DNA from: an uncultured bacterium
Lineage (GTDB): Bacteria; Armatimonadota; UBA5829
Length of the DNA: 36,267 nucleotides
Assembly: GCA_938074205.1 (NCBI GenBank)
Contig: CALJES010000001.1
Span: 1 to 36,267, forward strand
Direction of reading: 5' to 3'
Below, piece by piece: positions 4,609-36,267 of the stretch. Under the pieces are notes generated by a model. That model ran no database searches and was not told the origin of the DNA. It was given only the letters and a program-made list of their open reading frames with translations. The position numbers were made by a program, and so were the translations under genes. Each line of letters starts with the position of its first letter. The stretch's first letter is position 1.

Positions 4609-4949
4609 CTTGTGCTAACGACCCCCTGAGGTAGCAATCTGCTGTCAGTATTATGCTATCACACCTCACTGTGACCGGTCAACGAAGTGTGCCAGCAACG
4701 AATGTTCCCGCTAATGATCTCAGTGTGAAAACCGTCTCCTCGGCTAAGAGCCACACTCCTAAGTAGAAGTATGAACCGTACCGCGGGTCTGGTTGATGTG
4801 TCTCAAGCGGAATACGAGGCCACCCCAGATTTTAACCGGACCATCGCTTCCGTAGGCCAACATATGCAAATTAGCATCGAGTCTGATGTTCTCTTGACTT
4901 ACAGCTTCTTGTTCGATACTATGCTTCCGTGCGGGGTGGAGGCAAAAAA
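4609..4949. other. Intergenic region between secG and the UroD-like gene
   Basis: This 341-base spacer lies between two divergent genes. Short frames on both strands were read and show no ribosome site or recognisable protein. The right end holds a good promoter (4894-4922) and the ribosome site of the next gene (GGTGGAGG, 4935-4942). Nothing else was identified in the middle. Confidence 0.6.
4894..4922 (+). promoter_or_regulatory. Sigma70-type promoter of the UroD-like/GHL10 operon
   Basis: TTGACT (4894-4899) and TACTAT (4917-4922) are separated by exactly 17 bases. Transcription would begin near 4929, leaving a leader of about 20 bases with the ribosome site before ATG 4950. The spacing and near-consensus hexamers make this one of the best promoters in the window. 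Confidence 0.7.
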
Positions 4950-6029
4950 ATGACAGGACTTGATCGCTTTCTTGCTGCTTTAAATCGCGAAGAACCAGAT
5001 ATCGTTCCAATTTGGGAACTCATTATTAACGAACCCACGCTATCGGCACTTCATGGCGAAGTGGGCTACCTTGAATTCTGCGATCTCGAGGGACTCGACG
5101 GGGTAACCATTTTTGAAAACCAGGCTACATCTACTGGACCAAACGGAGCCCAACTCGACGAGTGGGGTATAATTTGGAAAACGGCAGGATTTGGCGTTTA
5201 TTACCCCTCCGGAGGACCAATCAAGAACAGGGAAGACCTTGAATCTTACGAACCGCCCGATCCCAACTCGCCACATAGGTTCGCAGATCTCAACGCCGCG
5301 GTAGAAAGGTTCAAAGGCGAGAAGGCAATAGTGTTCCTGACCCACGAAGCATTTGAGTTCTCCCATTACCTAAGGGGACTGGACAATCTGATGATCGACT
5401 ACATTGAAGATCCCACCTTCGTTCATGAGTTAGCGACTATGGTAAGCGAATACAAGATTGAGCTGGCGGAAGCCGCTATTGATCTAGGAGCGGATGTAAT
5501 AGTATCGGGCGATGACTATGCGAGTCGCCACGGAACTATAATGTCCGTGGATCATTGGGAAGAGTACTCGCTCCCTTATCTTGAAAAGTTAATCAAGGCA
5601 GTACATCGAAAAGGTGTGCCCTTTATCAAGCACACCGATGGCAACATCTGGAACATCCTAGAAAAAATGGTCAATGCGGGTATAGATGCGATAGATCCTT
5701 TGGAACCTATTGCCCAAATGGACATTGGGAAAGTAAAGGAGCGCTTTGGTGACAAAATATGCGTCGTTGGAAACGTCGACTGCACTGAGATATTGACTCA
5801 TGCGCCAATTGAAGACGTTGTAGATGCGATAAAGGAAACAATAGCTAAAGGATCCCCGGGTGGCGGCCATATTCTTGCGTCATCAAACTCAATACACCCA
5901 GGCGTGAAACCGGAAAACTACCGAACAATGGTAGAAGCCGCTCGACGATTCGGTGTGTATCCGCTGGATGAAGAGCTTATTCGCGAGTATTCTGAGCGTA
6001 GTTATATCAAGAGGTATTTGGATGAGTAG
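4950..6029 (+). CDS. UroD-superfamily protein (methyltransferase-like, not HemE)
   Basis: This is a 359-residue protein of the uroporphyrinogen decarboxylase superfamily. ATG 4950 is chosen over an in-frame GTG at 4929 because GGTGGAGG lies 7 bases before it. The family look is clear: an opening like TGLDRFLAALNREEPDIVPI, HYLRGLDNLMIDYIEDP (139-155), SGDDYAS (186-192), and a TIM-barrel ending with GNVDCTEILTHAP. It lacks the conserved Arg-rich start of true HemE. At the usual zinc site it has H228-T-D230 rather than HxC, and no obvious late Cys ligand. Its stop overlaps the GHL10 start, so the two are probably co-translated. Methyl transfer to or from a corrinoid or a small substrate is the family's known non-HemE activity; the substrate here is unknown. 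Confidence 0.8.
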   Translation: MTGLDRFLAALNREEPDIVPIWELIINEPTLSALHGEVGYLEFCDLEGLDGVTIFENQATSTGPNGAQLDEWGIIWKTAGFGVYYPSGGPIKNREDLESYEPPDPNSPHRFADLNAAVERFKGEKAIVFLTHEAFEFSHYLRGLDNLMIDYIEDPTFVHELATMVSEYKIELAEAAIDLGADVIVSGDDYASRHGTIMSVDHWEEYSLPYLEKLIKAVHRKGVPFIKHTDGNIWNILEKMVNAGIDAIDPLEPIAQMDIGKVKERFGDKICVVGNVDCTEILTHAPIEDVVDAIKETIAKGSPGGGHILASSNSIHPGVKPENYRTMVEAARRFGVYPLDEELIREYSERSYIKRYLDE

Positions 6030-7206
6030 GCATCAAAGCCATCCGACAATTTTTTCTCATTCGCATACTTATAGACTTTCGACGTGGTGTCTCGCAGCGG
6101 CGCTTGTGTGCCTCTCCACTGTTGGCTGCACCTCGGCACAATTGGAGTTCAGGGGGGCGTGGGTGACCGCGTGGACTTCCGGCTTTCTTACAGAAGAGGA
6201 AATTGACGCCACAATCGCAGCAGCAAAGAAGGCTGGCATAAAAGCTTTATTTGTGCAAGTACGTAAGAACGGTGACGCCTACTACAACTCGCAAAGCGAA
6301 CCCAAGGGAAGCGGAATTGCGCCGGACTTTGACCCACTCGCTGCGATCATCAAAAAGGCACACGCGGAGAAAATAGAAGTTCACGCCTGGGTGAATACAT
6401 TGAGGATGTGGTCATCAGGAACTCCGACTGACCCCAAGCACATCGCTAATCGTCATCCGGAATGGATCAACAAAGACAAGGACGGAAACACGCGGGCCAG
6501 CGAAGGCCTATATCTTGACCCGGGCATTGCTCAAGTCAGGGACTATGTAGCTACAGTAGTGGAGGAGATTGTCAGGAACTATGATGTCGACGGTATTCAC
6601 CTCGATTACATACGCTACCCGGGAAGGAACTGGGGTTACTCAGATTTAGCACTGGAACAATACCGCAATGAGAATGGAACCCCAGGGAAACCATCACCTG
6701 ACGACCCTAGATGGCTCCAATGGAAACGGGAGCAAGTTACTAAGTTGGTTAGGGAGATTCGAAAGCGGGTGAAAGCTGTCAAGCCTAAAGTTGTTATTTC
6801 GGCTTCGACCATAGCTTGGGGTGATTGCCCAAACGATTTTTCCGCTTCGTCGCCCTTTGCTGTTGTAACTCAGGACTGGAAGCAATGGATGAAAGAAGGT
6901 TTGCTTGACGCAAATTGTCCAATGAACTATAAGGACGAATCGAACCCGAAACAAGCAGCCTCATTCAGAAACTGGCTCACTGGGTTTAATAAATGGTCGA
7001 ATGGAAAACCTACGTATGTGGGAATAGATGTTCACACGAACAGCGTTTCGAATGTACTCAGACAGATAAAGGCCGTTCTGGAAGCTGGTTTGGAAGGATT
7101 TGTACTTTTTTCATTCAACGCATCAAAAAAGCGGGAAGCTGTGGTTGAAGCCATAGCAAATATTAGTTTCCCACAAACAGCATCGATAGGCAGCAAGGCG
7201 CGATAG
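6022..7206 (+). CDS. GHL10 / DUF187 glycoside hydrolase-like lipoprotein
   Basis: The product has 394 residues. ATG 6022 follows AAGAGGT and overlaps the end of the upstream gene by 8 bases, so translational coupling is likely. The N-terminus has a signal segment ending in STVGC (Cys36), a slightly unusual lipobox. The rest is a (beta/alpha)8 domain of the GHL10 (DUF187) family: FRGAWVTAW (43-51), GIKALFVQVRKNGDAYY (72-88), VHAWVNTLRMW (120-130) and DGIHLDYIRYP (190-200), the family's hallmark with the probable catalytic Asp. Family members are membrane-anchored, glycosidase-like proteins of poorly known substrate. Pairing with a UroD-like gene suggests a shared substrate, which is an inference. 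Confidence 0.87.
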   Translation: MSRHQSHPTIFSHSHTYRLSTWCLAAALVCLSTVGCTSAQLEFRGAWVTAWTSGFLTEEEIDATIAAAKKAGIKALFVQVRKNGDAYYNSQSEPKGSGIAPDFDPLAAIIKKAHAEKIEVHAWVNTLRMWSSGTPTDPKHIANRHPEWINKDKDGNTRASEGLYLDPGIAQVRDYVATVVEEIVRNYDVDGIHLDYIRYPGRNWGYSDLALEQYRNENGTPGKPSPDDPRWLQWKREQVTKLVREIRKRVKAVKPKVVISASTIAWGDCPNDFSASSPFAVVTQDWKQWMKEGLLDANCPMNYKDESNPKQAASFRNWLTGFNKWSNGKPTYVGIDVHTNSVSNVLRQIKAVLEAGLEGFVLFSFNASKKREAVVEAIANISFPQTASIGSKAR

Positions 7207-30807: not shown

Positions 30808-31527
30808 ATGCACCGCAAACAAGGTTTCACATTGATTGAGCTTCTCGTAGTGATCGCCATAATAGCCATACTCGCCGCCGTGCTGTTTCCGGTTTTTGCA
30901 AATGCGAAAGAACGCGCCAGGCAGGCGAAATGCCTCGCCAATTTGAGGCAACTCACCAGCGCGCTTAGGCAGTATATGGACGACAACGACGGTAGAGTGC
31001 CACCTATTTCAAAGTACAATTTTCCGAATCTAACCAATTGGTGCGGTACCCTTCAAACATTCGGCGTTACACAGGTAGAAAAGGGTTCACTTTGGCCTTA
31101 CGTTCGAAACCGCGAAGTATACATATGCCCTAGCGACATCGGTCGCGAAGCAAAAGGTCTGGACACTTCGCTTGTTCCGACGGTGGAGCAGCGAAAGGCC
31201 TATCCGCTGTCCTACAGTATGAATGGCGAGCTCAACAAGCGACTTCCGAACGGTTCATACGAATGCATCAAACTGGACTGTTATGCCTCGAGGAAGCTTT
31301 CCAAGATTCTCCTGTTGATCCACGAAAGTCGCAACACGATCAACGACGGGCTGTACCTCTGGAGAGGTAATAATCTCGATACGCCCGATAAGATTCACTA
31401 CGATGGAACAACCGCGAGCTACTGCGACGGCCACGCCCGCTGGGTCAGCAACAAAGAATTGGTGAAGGTCCAGAACACAGGTCAATACACTTACCAATCC
31501 GAATGGGACCCAGATCCTGCAAGATAG
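30808..31527 (+). CDS. DUF1559 / type II secretion prepilin-like protein (H-X9-DG)
   Basis: The product has 239 residues. ATG 30808 follows AGAGGA by 8 bases. The N-terminus is a classic type IV prepilin signal: MHRKQG then [20 protein letters not shown], cleaved after Gly6, with Glu11 as the +5 residue. [21 protein letters not shown] continues the helix. The end holds the H-X9-DG motif (H197 to D207-G208). Such proteins are abundant in Planctomycetes and Armatimonadota and are thought to be pseudopilins exported by type II secretion or type IV pilus machinery. No prepilin peptidase or secretin is nearby. It lies 30 bases before the GH94 gene and may be co-transcribed. Confidence 0.92.
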
Positions 31528-31557: not shown

Positions 31558-33999
31558 ATGCCTCTAGATGACTACGGATTCTTCACTGAAGATGGGCGCG
31601 AATTCGTGATAACCCGTCCCGACACTCCTGCACCCTGGATCAACTATATTTCAAACGGCCGATACACAGGGCTCGTTTCCAACACCGGCGGGGGATTCAG
31701 CTATTGGGTAGATCCGCGCGACAGCCGCCTCACGCGCTTTCGGTATAATTCACTACCGTGGGACAGGCCCGGAAGATATGTCTACCTAAAAGATCTCGAT
31801 GATATTTACTGGAGCTTATCATGGCAGCCCACTGTTCACGCTTGCACTGATTACGAGTGCAGAATAGGAATGGGCTACCAAACGATTCGCTCTCTTTATA
31901 GAGACATACGTAGCGAGATAACATACTTCGTACCGCTTGAAGATGACCTTGAGATATGGTTAGTCAAACTTCGAAACGAAAGCCTTGACACAAAACGCCT
32001 ACAAGTATTCTCCTACGTAGAGCTGTGTCTGGGTCACGCCCTGGTAGATTTGATTAATCAACCCAATGACCAACACTTCAACATAGCCCGCTTCGATCGC
32101 TCAGACAATGCAATCTATGCAACCAAGAACTACTGGGTAACCCACCGAGGAGTGTCCGTCGCGCAGCCGAATCAAGGTTGGGATAGATACGTGATGTTCA
32201 CCACCGATTTGCCCGTACAAACGTGGGACTGCTCGAAGGACGCTTTTATCGGTAAATGGCGAAGCGAGGAGAATCCGATCGGCATAGAAAACGGGATTTT
32301 ATCCAATACCGACATAACTGCGGGTGATGCTTGCGCAGCACTTCACAGCGAGATTGTCCTTGAGCCCAAAGGGGAGCTCAATTTCGTCGTGATAATGGCC
32401 TGTGTACAAGCCGACAAATATCAGGAAGAGGGACGCAAGCTGATACGCAAATATCGTCAGCCGATAGCGGTCTTAAGAGCGCTTGATCGGGTGAAATCTT
32501 GGTGGAATGAGTATCTGGATTCGGTTATCGTTGAGACGCCGGACAGTGAAATGAACCTTGTTTTAAACACCTGGGCAAAGCGGCAAGCCTGGGTAACCTT
32601 CAACTGCAATCGCAACGCTGGTTATTACCATGGCGGTTTGCTGTTTGGAGTCGGAATTAGAGACCAATGTCAAGACATGATGGGTCCTCTGTTAAGCATA
32701 CCTGAGGCTGTAGCGGAACGACTAACAGAAGTGCTTTCCCACCAATTCCAAGACGGTAGCACTCTGCACAACTATTTCAAACTTACTGGGCAAGGCGAAA
32801 AGACCGGGCACTCGGATACGCCCCTGTGGCTTCCCTTCGCAGTGGTGAACTATTTGAAAGAAACAGCTGACTGGGATTTCCTAAAACGAGTGGTTCCTTT
32901 CCAAGACGGCGGCGAAGCGGATGTTTTGGACCACGTGTTGAGAGCTGTGGACTATGTTTTATCTCAGCTCACTGAAAACCATATGCCGAAGTTTGGTCCC
33001 GGTGACTGGAACGACACTCTGGACTATGTCGGTCGAAAAGGAAAAGGCGAAAGCGTTTGGGTAGCTCATTTCCTATGCTATGTGCTTCGTGAATGTGCCG
33101 AGCTTCTTGAGTATATGGGGCGGCAAATCGTTTGCCCCAGCGCGGCGTATCTCAAGGAAAAAGCCCGCGAGTATCGCCGCGAGTATGAACTTGTAAAGCA
33201 AGCTGTCAACGATCGCTGCTGGGACGGCGAGTGGTATATCAGAGGCACGCGCGACGATGGTGGCGTTATCGGATCGCACATCAATAAAGAGGGTCGAATC
33301 TTTATGAATGCCCAAAGCTGGGCAGTAATATCCGGTGTTGCCGACGAAGCTCGCGCCAAACTTGCAATGGATTCAGCCGACCGGTTGTTGATAACTCAAA
33401 GAGGTCCAAAGATTTTGTCCCCAAGTTATACACAGGTGGACCCCGGGATCGGACTAGCAACCAGATGCGTACCAGGTAAGAAGGAAAACGGCGCCATATT
33501 CAACCATGTAGCGGCGTGGTCTATACTTGCAAACGCGATTATCGGTGAAGGAAATAGAGCGTACGATTACTTCCGCAAAACTATGCCGATGATCCAAGCG
33601 CAATCGGATCCAGACCTGTATAAGATGGAGCCGTATGTTTACTCAGAATACGTCACAAGCGACGACCACCCGACATTTGGTCAAGCTAGTCACTCGTGGC
33701 TAACCGGGTCTGCCGTGTGGATGTTAAGAACAGGTCTTGATTGGATCCTTGGGCTGCGGCCGACATATGAGGGATTGGTGTTGGATCCTTGTATCCCGTC
33801 TGCTTGGAATGGCTTTAGGATGGTGCGTAAGTTCAGAGAGGCCGTTTATGAAGTTGAAGTCAGAAATCCGGACCACGTCCAGCGTGGAGTGGCTAGGATA
33901 GAAGTTGATGGCCTACCTATCACAGGTAAACTGCTGCCGCTTCTTGAGCCTGGGCACACAGGGCGAGTACTTTGCATTATGGGAAAAGAAACACAATGA
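31558..33999 (+). CDS. GH94 glycoside phosphorylase (cellobiose/chitobiose phosphorylase family)
   Basis: The product has 813 residues, close to the 800-820 of cellobiose and chitobiose phosphorylases. ATG 31558 follows GGAGGG. No signal peptide is present, so it acts in the cytoplasm. N-terminal beta sandwich (about 1-280): YISNGRYTGLVSNTGGGFSY. (alpha/alpha)6 barrel: GIRDQCQDMM (366-375), FGPGDWNDTLD with the general acid Asp486, and GSHINKEGRIFMNAQSW. It would cleave a beta-linked disaccharide with phosphate to a hexose 1-phosphate plus a free sugar, saving ATP. The acceptor specificity is undecided. The stop overlaps the next UroD-like gene's start (ATGA). Confidence 0.93.
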   Translation: MPLDDYGFFTEDGREFVITRPDTPAPWINYISNGRYTGLVSNTGGGFSYWVDPRDSRLTRFRYNSLPWDRPGRYVYLKDLDDIYWSLSWQPTVHACTDYECRIGMGYQTIRSLYRDIRSEITYFVPLEDDLEIWLVKLRNESLDTKRLQVFSYVELCLGHALVDLINQPNDQHFNIARFDRSDNAIYATKNYWVTHRGVSVAQPNQGWDRYVMFTTDLPVQTWDCSKDAFIGKWRSEENPIGIENGILSNTDITAGDACAALHSEIVLEPKGELNFVVIMACVQADKYQEEGRKLIRKYRQPIAVLRALDRVKSWWNEYLDSVIVETPDSEMNLVLNTWAKRQAWVTFNCNRNAGYYHGGLLFGVGIRDQCQDMMGPLLSIPEAVAERLTEVLSHQFQDGSTLHNYFKLTGQGEKTGHSDTPLWLPFAVVNYLKETADWDFLKRVVPFQDGGEADVLDHVLRAVDYVLSQLTENHMPKFGPGDWNDTLDYVGRKGKGESVWVAHFLCYVLRECAELLEYMGRQIVCPSAAYLKEKAREYRREYELVKQAVNDRCWDGEWYIRGTRDDGGVIGSHINKEGRIFMNAQSWAVISGVADEARAKLAMDSADRLLITQRGPKILSPSYTQVDPGIGLATRCVPGKKENGAIFNHVAAWSILANAIIGEGNRAYDYFRKTMPMIQAQSDPDLYKMEPYVYSEYVTSDDHPTFGQASHSWLTGSAVWMLRTGLDWILGLRPTYEGLVLDPCIPSAWNGFRMVRKFREAVYEVEVRNPDHVQRGVARIEVDGLPITGKLLPLLEPGHTGRVLCIMGKETQ

Positions 34000-34961
34000 C
34001 TAGTAGAGAGAGAGTAGCACGAACTCTCAGATTTGAAAGGCCGGATCGACTACCATACGATTTCCCTGAACCATATGGCACGGATTTCTTCTACACTGGT
34101 TTGGAGCCGAGTCCGGACATGCGGCCGGCCAACGGTGTTGATGAGTGGGGCGCTGTCTGGAAAAACATCGGAAGTTCTTACCACGGGGAAGTAAAAGAGT
34201 TTCCTCTGAAAGACTGGACTGATCTCAAGAAGTTGCATATACCGGACGTTGCCGCACCACACAGGTGGCAGAAGGTTGAATCGGCACGACGCGAAGCAGG
34301 CGATAAGTTCATACTAGGGTTCGGACTATCAATCTACGAGCGAGTGCACTTCCTCAGAGGACTCGAGAACACGTGGATAGACATATATGAAAACCCGGGG
34401 CCCTTGTCCGAACTTATCGATATCCTCGTGCAGATGAACTTGGAAGTCATAAGTAGATACTCACGCTATGATATAGACGGTTACTTCTTTGGTGACGACT
34501 GGGGTCTACAGAATCGGTTGATGATCTCACCCGAAAAATGGCGGGAGATCTGGAAGCCGGCTTACACAAAGGTCTTCAAAGCTGCGCACGAAGCCGGTAT
34601 GTTTACAGTACTTCACTCGTGCGGTTACATAGTGGATATTTTAGACGACCTTATTGAGATAGGTTTAGACGTCATACACATGGACCAACAGGAAAACATG
34701 GGGCTGGAGCTTCTCGGCAACCGTTTCGCAGGCCGCATAACGTTTTTCTCACCAGTAGATATACAAAACACAATGGCACGCGGTAACCTGGATGAGATTA
34801 AAGCTTACTGCCGCAGGATGGCATCTCTTTTGTGTACTCCTAACGGCGGGTTCATACCAAGATGGTATTCGGACCCGGTGGGTGCCGGACATACTAAGGA
34901 AGCACTGGACGCGATGTGCAGAGAGTTTATAAAAATAAGCGAGGAGTTCGCTCGTGTCTGA
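33996..34961 (+). CDS. UroD-superfamily methyltransferase-like protein with intact HxC...C site
   Basis: The product has 321 residues. ATG 33996 shares ATGA with the GH94 stop, a coupling overlap. RERVARTLRFERPDRLPYDF, VHFLRGLENTWIDIYENP (117-134) and FFGDDWGLQNRLMISPEKW (164-182) are typical of the UroD-like group. It has LHSCG with H207-x-C209 and a later C280, matching the HxC-Xn-C zinc site of corrinoid-linked methyltransferases such as MtaA (a spacing of about 70 residues against their about 77). This argues for methyl transfer rather than porphyrin decarboxylation. It overlaps the DUF362 gene at its end. Confidence 0.82.
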   Translation: MTSRERVARTLRFERPDRLPYDFPEPYGTDFFYTGLEPSPDMRPANGVDEWGAVWKNIGSSYHGEVKEFPLKDWTDLKKLHIPDVAAPHRWQKVESARREAGDKFILGFGLSIYERVHFLRGLENTWIDIYENPGPLSELIDILVQMNLEVISRYSRYDIDGYFFGDDWGLQNRLMISPEKWREIWKPAYTKVFKAAHEAGMFTVLHSCGYIVDILDDLIEIGLDVIHMDQQENMGLELLGNRFAGRITFFSPVDIQNTMARGNLDEIKAYCRRMASLLCTPNGGFIPRWYSDPVGAGHTKEALDAMCREFIKISEEFARV

Positions 34962-36168
34962 AGGACCTGTTGTTTCGATCTCCCGTGTGGATGACCCATC
35001 AGATGAAAAATCCATAGAAGCAGCCGTTAGAAAGGCTGTGGTAGATGCGTGCAACTTTGAGAAGCTATGCAGATCCAAGCAAGTGGTTATCAAGCCCAAC
35101 GTATACTGTCCCTCGCCTGCCCCAATAACGACTGATCCGCGCGTTGTAGCATCTTTGATCCGTCTAGCAAAAGACTGCGGCGCAAGGGAAGTGGTAGTAG
35201 CAGAAGGTCGAAGTATATCCACGACCCTATTCAGACCTCAAGCACGAACGACACGCGCTTGTTTTGAGGCAGTGGGTATGGACAGGGCAGCAACTGAGAA
35301 TGCCGCGAGAATAGTATACCTGGAAGAAGATGAGCTAATCACGTTGCGGCGGCCTGAAGCTCTGGTGTTGAAAGAAGCACGCGTCATGCGAACTGTGTAC
35401 GAAGCTGAGGTATTAGTCAACGTTCCGGTGCTGAAGAATCATAGCCTTACACTTACCACACTCGGCATAAAGAATCTACACGGCATTTTATCCGACGAGG
35501 ACAAGCTCTTCGGACATGACTACAGACGTATCCCGCAGAAGCTAGTGGATATTCTGCGTTACGTAAAGCCGCATCTGACGGTAATTGACGGTATTCGCGG
35601 ACAGGAAGGCGACCACGCAGATATGGGCAGAACAGTCGATACCGGAATAATAATTGCTGGAACTGATGTCGTGGCTGTTGACGCCGTTGGCGAAGCGGTT
35701 ATGGGGCTTAAAAACCTTGAAGTCGATACCACCCGTTTAGCCCACGAGCAGGGAATCGGCATAGGTGACCGGAATCTGATAAATATTGTCGGATCTAAAA
35801 TAGACAATGTTGTACACCGATTCGCCAGACCGGATATCCAAATATCTGAAGATAGGTTCCCCGGGCTTCGTGTTAGAGCCGGCGATTATTGTAAGGGGTG
35901 CGAATACTATATTCGACGTGGCGTTGACCGTTTGGTATCCGCTGGAGTGCTTAAACCTGAGAACAAGCTAACCCTTGTCTTCGGCAAAAATCCTGATGTC
36001 GAAGAGAACCTGGATGGTAGGGTACTTATTTTAGGGGATTGCGCAATTGAAAGCGAATCCGTAAAACGACTTCGGAATCGACTTTGGTTGACGGGACGGC
36101 TGAGGGTGATCTACTGCTGCCCGCCGATGGAGTTTCGCATGCGCGCGCTCGAGCTTGCTGGAGATTGA
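34954..36168 (+). CDS. DUF362 domain protein
   Basis: The product has 404 residues. GTG 34954 follows GAGGAG by about 7 bases and overlaps the UroD-like stop by 8 bases. DUF362 marks are VVIKPNVYCPSPAPITTDP (43-61), VAEGRSI, VNVPVLKNHSLTLTTLGIKN and HADMGRTVDTGIIIAGTDVVAVDAVGEAVM. A C-terminal segment has YCKGCEYY and later GDC and CC, which may bind an iron-sulfur centre, though no full ferredoxin domain is present. The biochemical role of the family is unknown. The tight packing with GH94, UroD-like and HAD genes suggests a single pathway. Confidence 0.87.
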   Translation: MSEGPVVSISRVDDPSDEKSIEAAVRKAVVDACNFEKLCRSKQVVIKPNVYCPSPAPITTDPRVVASLIRLAKDCGAREVVVAEGRSISTTLFRPQARTTRACFEAVGMDRAATENAARIVYLEEDELITLRRPEALVLKEARVMRTVYEAEVLVNVPVLKNHSLTLTTLGIKNLHGILSDEDKLFGHDYRRIPQKLVDILRYVKPHLTVIDGIRGQEGDHADMGRTVDTGIIIAGTDVVAVDAVGEAVMGLKNLEVDTTRLAHEQGIGIGDRNLINIVGSKIDNVVHRFARPDIQISEDRFPGLRVRAGDYCKGCEYYIRRGVDRLVSAGVLKPENKLTLVFGKNPDVEENLDGRVLILGDCAIESESVKRLRNRLWLTGRLRVIYCCPPMEFRMRALELAGD

Positions 36169-36186
36169 TCTGGAGCGTTGCTGCCG

Positions 36187-36267
36187 ATGAACCAAAACAA
36201 GAACACATTTCATGATGACTTGCCGAAAGCGGTTATATTCGATATGGACGGTGTGCTGGCGGACACA
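36187..36267 (+). CDS. HAD-superfamily hydrolase, N-terminal fragment (cut by window end)
   Basis: Twenty-seven codons from ATG 36187 are visible, with GGAG about 12 bases upstream. They encode PKAVIFDMDGVLADT, HAD motif I with the nucleophile and general-acid aspartates (DxD). This form is typical of the beta-phosphoglucomutase/phosphatase subfamily (Pgm-like). The gene starts 18 bases after DUF362. A sugar-phosphate mutase or phosphatase would fit beside GH94, but GH94 products are usually alpha-1-phosphates, so a beta-phosphoglucomutase role is uncertain. Confidence 0.8.
   Translation, partial: MNQNKNTFHDDLPKAVIFDMDGVLADT

Follow-up and report, generated by a model that had tools for sequence, protein, structure and literature searches.

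A GH94 glycoside phosphorylase gene in a lineage-specific four-gene operon of one Armatimonadota genus

What could bring a glycoside phosphorylase, a methyltransferase-like protein, a DUF362 protein and a HAD protein together in one tightly packed set of genes? The question arises at the end of the window, by which we mean the whole stretch of DNA that was analysed, which opens a contig of 211 kb and takes in its first 36,267 bases; the genome is an Armatimonadota one of 3.02 Mb (97.9% complete). The original prediction, made from the letters of the window, saw here a candidate phosphorolytic pathway in which a modified disaccharide is cleaved, with methyl removal and sugar-phosphate handling. 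The genes concerned, and the one preceding them, are as follows.

30814..31527, + strand: type IV pseudopilin-like gene (N-methylation motif, DUF1559-like), from Pfam/NCBIfam
31558..33999, + strand: GH94 inverting glycoside phosphorylase, 813 aa, from Pfam, PDB alignment (3qde, 1v7v), residue mapping and a tree
33996..34961, + strand: URO-D/MtaA-superfamily protein, 321 aa from the ATG at 33996, from Pfam, alignment, model, fold match and profile alignment
34954..36168, + strand: DUF362 protein, 404 aa, GTG start, from Pfam, alignment, model, fold search and hhalign
36187..36267, + strand: 5′ part of a HAD gene (beta-PGM/YqaB-like); the full gene runs to contig base 36903

The four genes from GH94 to HAD are co-directional. 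GH94 and URO-D overlap by 4 bp (ATGA), URO-D and DUF362 overlap by 8 bp, and the HAD ATG at 36187 follows DUF362 after an 18-bp gap, so that the predicted packing holds to the base. Reading the contig past the window end, as had been proposed, gave the complete HAD protein of 238 aa (L011:6187-6903). GH94, URO-D, DUF362 and HAD are predicted to be one transcription unit, present in one Armatimonadota genus. The pseudopilin-like gene ends 30 bp before the GH94 start on the same strand and is possibly co-transcribed with GH94, while being probably unrelated to the operon in function. It occupies the same place in the congener G015, where it is 96% identical, above every operon gene.

The GH94 protein matches Glyco_hydro_94 (PF17167) over 420/420 positions (8.5e-110) and the supersandwich domain (PF06165) at 1.2e-74. 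With the catalytic, −1 and phosphate residue roles taken from published work (PMC5309861, PMC8741936), residue mapping places the general acid at D486 in a DWND motif and finds all the −1 and phosphate residues present: R368, D369, W484, E643, H650, T716, and G717. This complete set lends good support to the original assignment of a glycoside phosphorylase working by phosphorolysis. Judging by the conserved residues, the enzyme would split a beta-linked disaccharide by inverting phosphorolysis, yielding an alpha-sugar-1-phosphate and a free sugar.

The acceptor side is another matter. In cellobiose phosphorylase (CBP), we take the +1 subsite to consist of Glu649, Tyr653, and Lys658 (C. gilvus numbering), some of the CBP residue roles used in the comparison being assumed. 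The equivalent positions in the window’s GH94 are Leu633, Cys637, and Lys642, of which the Leu and Cys are unlike CBP and the Lys is the same; the Arg occupying subsite +2 of CBP and of N,N′-diacetylchitobiose phosphorylase (ChBP) is absent. These changes are near-invariant across a clade, here clade A, in which the catalytic and phosphate residues are kept. Clade A comprises 40 rows of the tree (SH-aLRT 99) and lies apart from CBP of C. thermocellum (CtCBP) and from ChBP of V. proteolyticus (VpChBP), the place of the latter being unsure because of its long branch. About seven phyla contribute to it, namely Armatimonadota, Abditibacteriota, Calditrichota, Marinimicrobia/Fidelibacterota, KSB1, Sumerlaeota, Kryptoniota, and a few others, and the residues flanking the active site are not quite the same in Armatimonadota as in the rest of the clade. 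Elsewhere in the tree, GH94 genes from Methanosarcinales/Methanophagales archaeal MAGs (L163, L164, L165) branch with an Armatimonadota paralogue clade.

In other phyla, the genes around clade A GH94 speak for amino sugars and not for methylated ones. NanE, the ManNAc-6-P epimerase, is encoded near the clade A GH94 gene in 17 of 23 non-Armatimonadota loci, often immediately downstream, and a PGM/PMM/GlmM-like mutase in 12 loci, immediately upstream in several phyla. Near the other GH94 groups NanE was found in 0/40 loci (clade B 0/22, CBP-like 0/7, others 0/11); Fisher’s test of 17/23 versus 0/40 gives 1e-10, a descriptive value, since the NanE loci are related and their counts are not independent. 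The placement of NanE within clade A is varied: it may directly follow GH94, stand about 3 kb off, or be on the other strand, and this variety speaks against descent from a single shared layout. NanE is also present, 3.3 kb from GH94, in two loci of Armatimonadota (G007, G008). In the window’s genome and its family, no NanE reaches the curated cut-off, the matches all being sub-threshold; because NanE is absent there, the amino-sugar route cannot be identical in this genome, which is the chief point against reading the operon in terms of amino sugars. None of the operon’s own genes is an amino-sugar gene.

Three further neighbourhoods were seen. In Calditrichota and Marinimicrobia (L125:5048-8649, L132, L177, L123), the cluster of phosphomutase, GH94 and NanE has DUF5009 (NagX-like) and hydantoinase-A-like genes next to it. 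A pseudouridine-5′-phosphate glycosidase-like gene occurs near GH94 in L044, L045, L046, L047, L062, L054, and L055; in five loci from the same family it is divergently oriented and at most two genes away. The sister group, clade B (Bacteroidota, Ignavibacteriota, Calditrichota; L141-L157), adjoins GH130 in 19 of 22 loci, which suggests a substrate of the glucomannan type for clade B GH94.

The explanation that we favour, tentatively, is that the operon grew stepwise around a clade A GH94 core whose substrate may contain an N-acetylhexosamine, perhaps ManNAc. Such a disaccharide is preferred because of the altered +1 subsite together with the NanE and GlmM-like neighbours in other phyla, and it is most likely a better lead than plain cellobiose or a methylated sugar. 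A more specific form of the proposal, for which we would claim little probability, is that clade A enzymes are phosphorylases of ManNAc-containing beta-disaccharides (e.g., ManNAc-GlcNAc) and that the resulting ManNAc-1-phosphate or ManNAc is converted by a phosphomutase and NanE into GlcNAc-6-phosphate; the Armatimonadota variant would use other enzymes in NanE’s stead, possibly including the LarA-fold DUF362 protein. N-acetylmannosamine has no mention in the 2022 review of glycoside phosphorylases (PMC8950772), and the literature found to connect GH94 with N-acetylmannosamine or NanE consists of one mucin paper that names the two incidentally, together with genome papers on unrelated matters. 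If the ManNAc reading is true, GH94 would gain a donor or acceptor class beyond those now listed.

The strongest competitor, though on balance unlikely, is that GH94 is a cello-oligosaccharide or plain beta-glucoside phosphorylase of a plant-polysaccharide degrader and that the other genes hitchhike. Plain cellobiose phosphorylase is disfavoured by Leu633 and Cys637, which stand where we presume Glu649 and Tyr653 to act in the C. gilvus enzyme and are invariant over most of clade A, and CtCBP falls outside clade A in the tree. Nevertheless, the best PDB match of the window’s GH94 is CtCBP (3qde, 1.3e-164), most known GH94 enzymes release alpha-Glc1P (PMC8950772), and other polysaccharide genes are found beside URO-D paralogues in the genome.

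How far do the partners of GH94 follow it? In a survey of 28 genomes of the class, GH94 orthologues (56–88% identity) occur in 20, with fragmentary copies in 2 more. The full order GH94-URO-D-DUF362-HAD is present in the window’s genome (G000) and in one congener, G015, the amino acid identities between the two being 88% for GH94, 90% for URO-D, 83% for DUF362, and 80% for HAD. Because G015 keeps both order and overlaps while synonymous sites are at or near saturation (dN is low), the open reading frames of the operon did not come to lie together by accident. Another congener, G014, has GH94-URO-D-HAD with 217 bp where DUF362 would stand; a DUF362 remnant was looked for in this gap, and none was found. 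GH94-DUF362 without URO-D occurs in G016, G017, G023, and G026, the last two having HAD as well. Overall, URO-D is linked to GH94 in one genus only (3 genomes), DUF362 in three genera (6 genomes), and HAD in 5 genomes. Six other class members carry DUF362 orthologues unlinked to GH94 (G006-G009, G012, G013); in G006-G008 the gene immediately preceding the orthologue is NDP-sugar epimerase-like. Beyond the genus, G013 has a URO-D orthologue (61%), as do two members of a different family in the phylum (64%), in every case with no GH94 alongside.

It follows from this distribution across the class that the cluster grew in steps and that its URO-D part is genus-specific. The ancestral core would be GH94; DUF362 may have been added inside the family, HAD in certain lineages, and URO-D in this genus only. 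A conserved four-gene pathway is rejected, given the confinement of the URO-D–GH94 linkage to one genus. The original prediction had named neighbourhood conservation as a check: the order is kept in the congener, but the four-gene set is not conserved more widely, and the want of linkage elsewhere that was to count against the idea is largely the case for URO-D and half the case for DUF362. What emerges is a real operon of mostly known protein kinds in a lineage-specific combination.

The same distribution bears on a reading that we consider rather doubtful, in which no common pathway extends beyond GH94-DUF362, the overlaps are a product of compaction of the genome, and the insertion of URO-D and HAD was fortuitous. 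Consistent with it, most clade A genomes have neither URO-D nor HAD at the GH94 site, and the best URO-D relatives outside the genus, those at 64%, have no adjoining GH94. Against it are the retention of order and overlaps between two species at near-saturated synonymous divergence, the GH94-URO-D-HAD set of the third congener, and the recurrence of DUF362-URO-D adjacency elsewhere. In G219 and G220, from another family of the phylum, a DUF362 orthologue is directly followed by a distant URO-D (33–34%) with no GH94 (L216:6816-9110, L217:5506-7829); because this pair is independent, DUF362 and URO-D may share a role.

The URO-D protein (Pfam URO-D, 5.3e-14) gave a model of pLDDT 95.5, which matches URO-D (1r3y) with a fold Z of 25.9 and MtaA (4ay7) with 25.7 over about 290 aligned residues. 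H207 and C209 are conserved in the orthologues and match the His-x-Cys pair of MtaA. The position of the third zinc Cys (about 286–288), extrapolated from MtaA spacing because the profile alignment to 4ay7 ends some ten residues short of that Cys, reads Phe-Ile-Pro, and no orthologue has a Cys there. The zinc site, which had been called intact, therefore retains only two of three ligands, His207 and Cys209, and with the third Cys missing is not an intact site of the S-methyltransferase (MtaA) type. In this superfamily, S-methyltransferases use His-Cys-Cys and O-methyltransferases replace one or both Cys (PMC10418091), so O-demethylation is possible for the protein. The protein is likely related to zinc methyltransferases, with His and Cys as the two ligands of its site.

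At least 27 URO-D genes are present in the window’s genome, and 3–47 per class genome among the matches listed; this abundance gives URO-D adjacency less weight. At 4929-7206 in the window, a second URO-D gene adjoins the carbohydrate gene GHL10. When ten of the genome’s URO-D loci were read, a carbohydrate-active gene stood next to URO-D in six (GH94, GHL10 twice, AXE1, GH65, pectate lyase 22), a count that is descriptive. The genome has one stand-alone corrinoid protein, encoded next to uvrA and unlinked to the operon, and inside the operon no corrinoid or reductive-activase gene was found.

A fuller form of the original idea of methyl removal, in which URO-D would move the methyl of an O-methylated disaccharide to a corrinoid protein, a DUF362 Fe-S protein would keep the corrinoid active, GH94 would split the sugar, and HAD would take the sugar phosphate, is improbable: it draws on the MtaA/URO-D fold, on a His-Cys site without the third Cys, as reported for O-methyltransferases of the superfamily (PMC10418091), on the single corrinoid protein of the genome, and on the pairing of DUF362 with a URO-D, seen again where GH94 is missing in two genomes from a different family of the phylum, but the URO-D–GH94 linkage is limited to this genus, the operon has neither a corrinoid nor a reductive-activase gene, and one congener does without DUF362.

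DUF362 proteins and LarA belong to the same Pfam clan, CL0471 (PMC11770544). The protein encoded here (DUF362, PF04015, 1.2e-47) was modelled at pLDDT 85.5 with a LarA-like fold over about residues 11–296, plus a C-terminal domain, and a fold search with the model returned LarA at Z 18.6 (6d6z), the next unrelated match being at Z 5.8, with a Foldseek value of 1.7e-7 (9eia). H163 and K173 have the spacing of H174 and K184 in LarA, which we take to be the catalytic His and the tether Lys. An hhalign comparison with a LarA homologue puts His163 and Lys173 on this pair at a probability of 0.3%, which is not significant, and a profile sequence search against the PDB gave chance matches only. Cysteines C316, C319, C363, and C391/392 are invariant in 12/12 orthologues; the CxxC pair that had been predicted is present but belongs to this set of four. 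No match to LarC (PF01969) was found in G000, nor in G012 and G013, which carry a DUF362 orthologue. Because the genome is without LarC, use of the nickel-pincer cofactor is unlikely, and a nickel-pincer (NPN) enzyme is disfavoured. LarC is present in 21 of the 28 class members. The protein is probably an Fe-S or metal-binding enzyme.

The last gene had been described as a Pgm-like HAD. It is beta-PGM/YqaB-like, but its score against the NCBIfam beta-PGM model is 103.6 bits, below the cut-off of 189.4, and it also falls below the phosphatase equivalog cut-offs. Inverting GH94 enzymes yield an alpha-1-phosphate, and beta-PGM takes the beta anomer. Because GH94 makes the alpha anomer, a beta-PGM could not act directly on its product; a role of the HAD as mutase for the GH94 product is rejected on this mismatch and on the low score. 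The protein is probably a sugar phosphatase or a related enzyme.

GH94 activities are few, and the enzymes are used for making defined oligosaccharides. Clade A spans about seven phyla, most of them uncultured, and combines a different acceptor site with a consistent amino-sugar gene context; it offers a concrete place to look for a new phosphorylase specificity. Clade A GH94 and this context are the parts most worth following, and then the LarA-fold DUF362 protein, since a LarA fold in a genome without LarC provides a testable structural starting point for the widespread DUF362 family.

The proteins compare with known systems as follows. GH94 shares with the cellobiose phosphorylases of C. 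thermocellum (3qde) and C. gilvus (2cqs) the full-length domains, the catalytic Asp, and the −1 and phosphate residues, but it belongs to a separate clade, with Leu633/Cys637 for their +1 Glu/Tyr and Phe363 for the Arg before GxGxRD. With VpChBP (1v7v, also 8bou), it shares the fold, the catalytic set, the TR-x-x-x-G-x-KENGAIF-H segment, and a small residue at the Tyr653 position (Val631 there, Cys637 here), whereas Arg343 of that enzyme, at the +1/+2 boundary, is Leu362 here, and the two are on separate branches. The URO-D protein resembles MtaA/soluble coenzyme M methyltransferases and URO-D in its whole-chain fold (Z about 26) and His-x-Cys motif, and differs in lacking the third zinc Cys, at 14–18% identity. 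The DUF362 protein has the fold of the LarA lactate/malate racemase superfamily in residues 11–296, with a His and a Lys ten residues apart, but at 13% identity, with the LarC gene missing and with another C-terminal domain bearing four Cys. Finally, the ferredoxin-type DUF362 paralogues (L109, L110) share PF04015 at about 30% identity and have two [4Fe-4S] motifs, in place of which the protein of this operon carries another kind of C-terminal domain, with its four conserved Cys.
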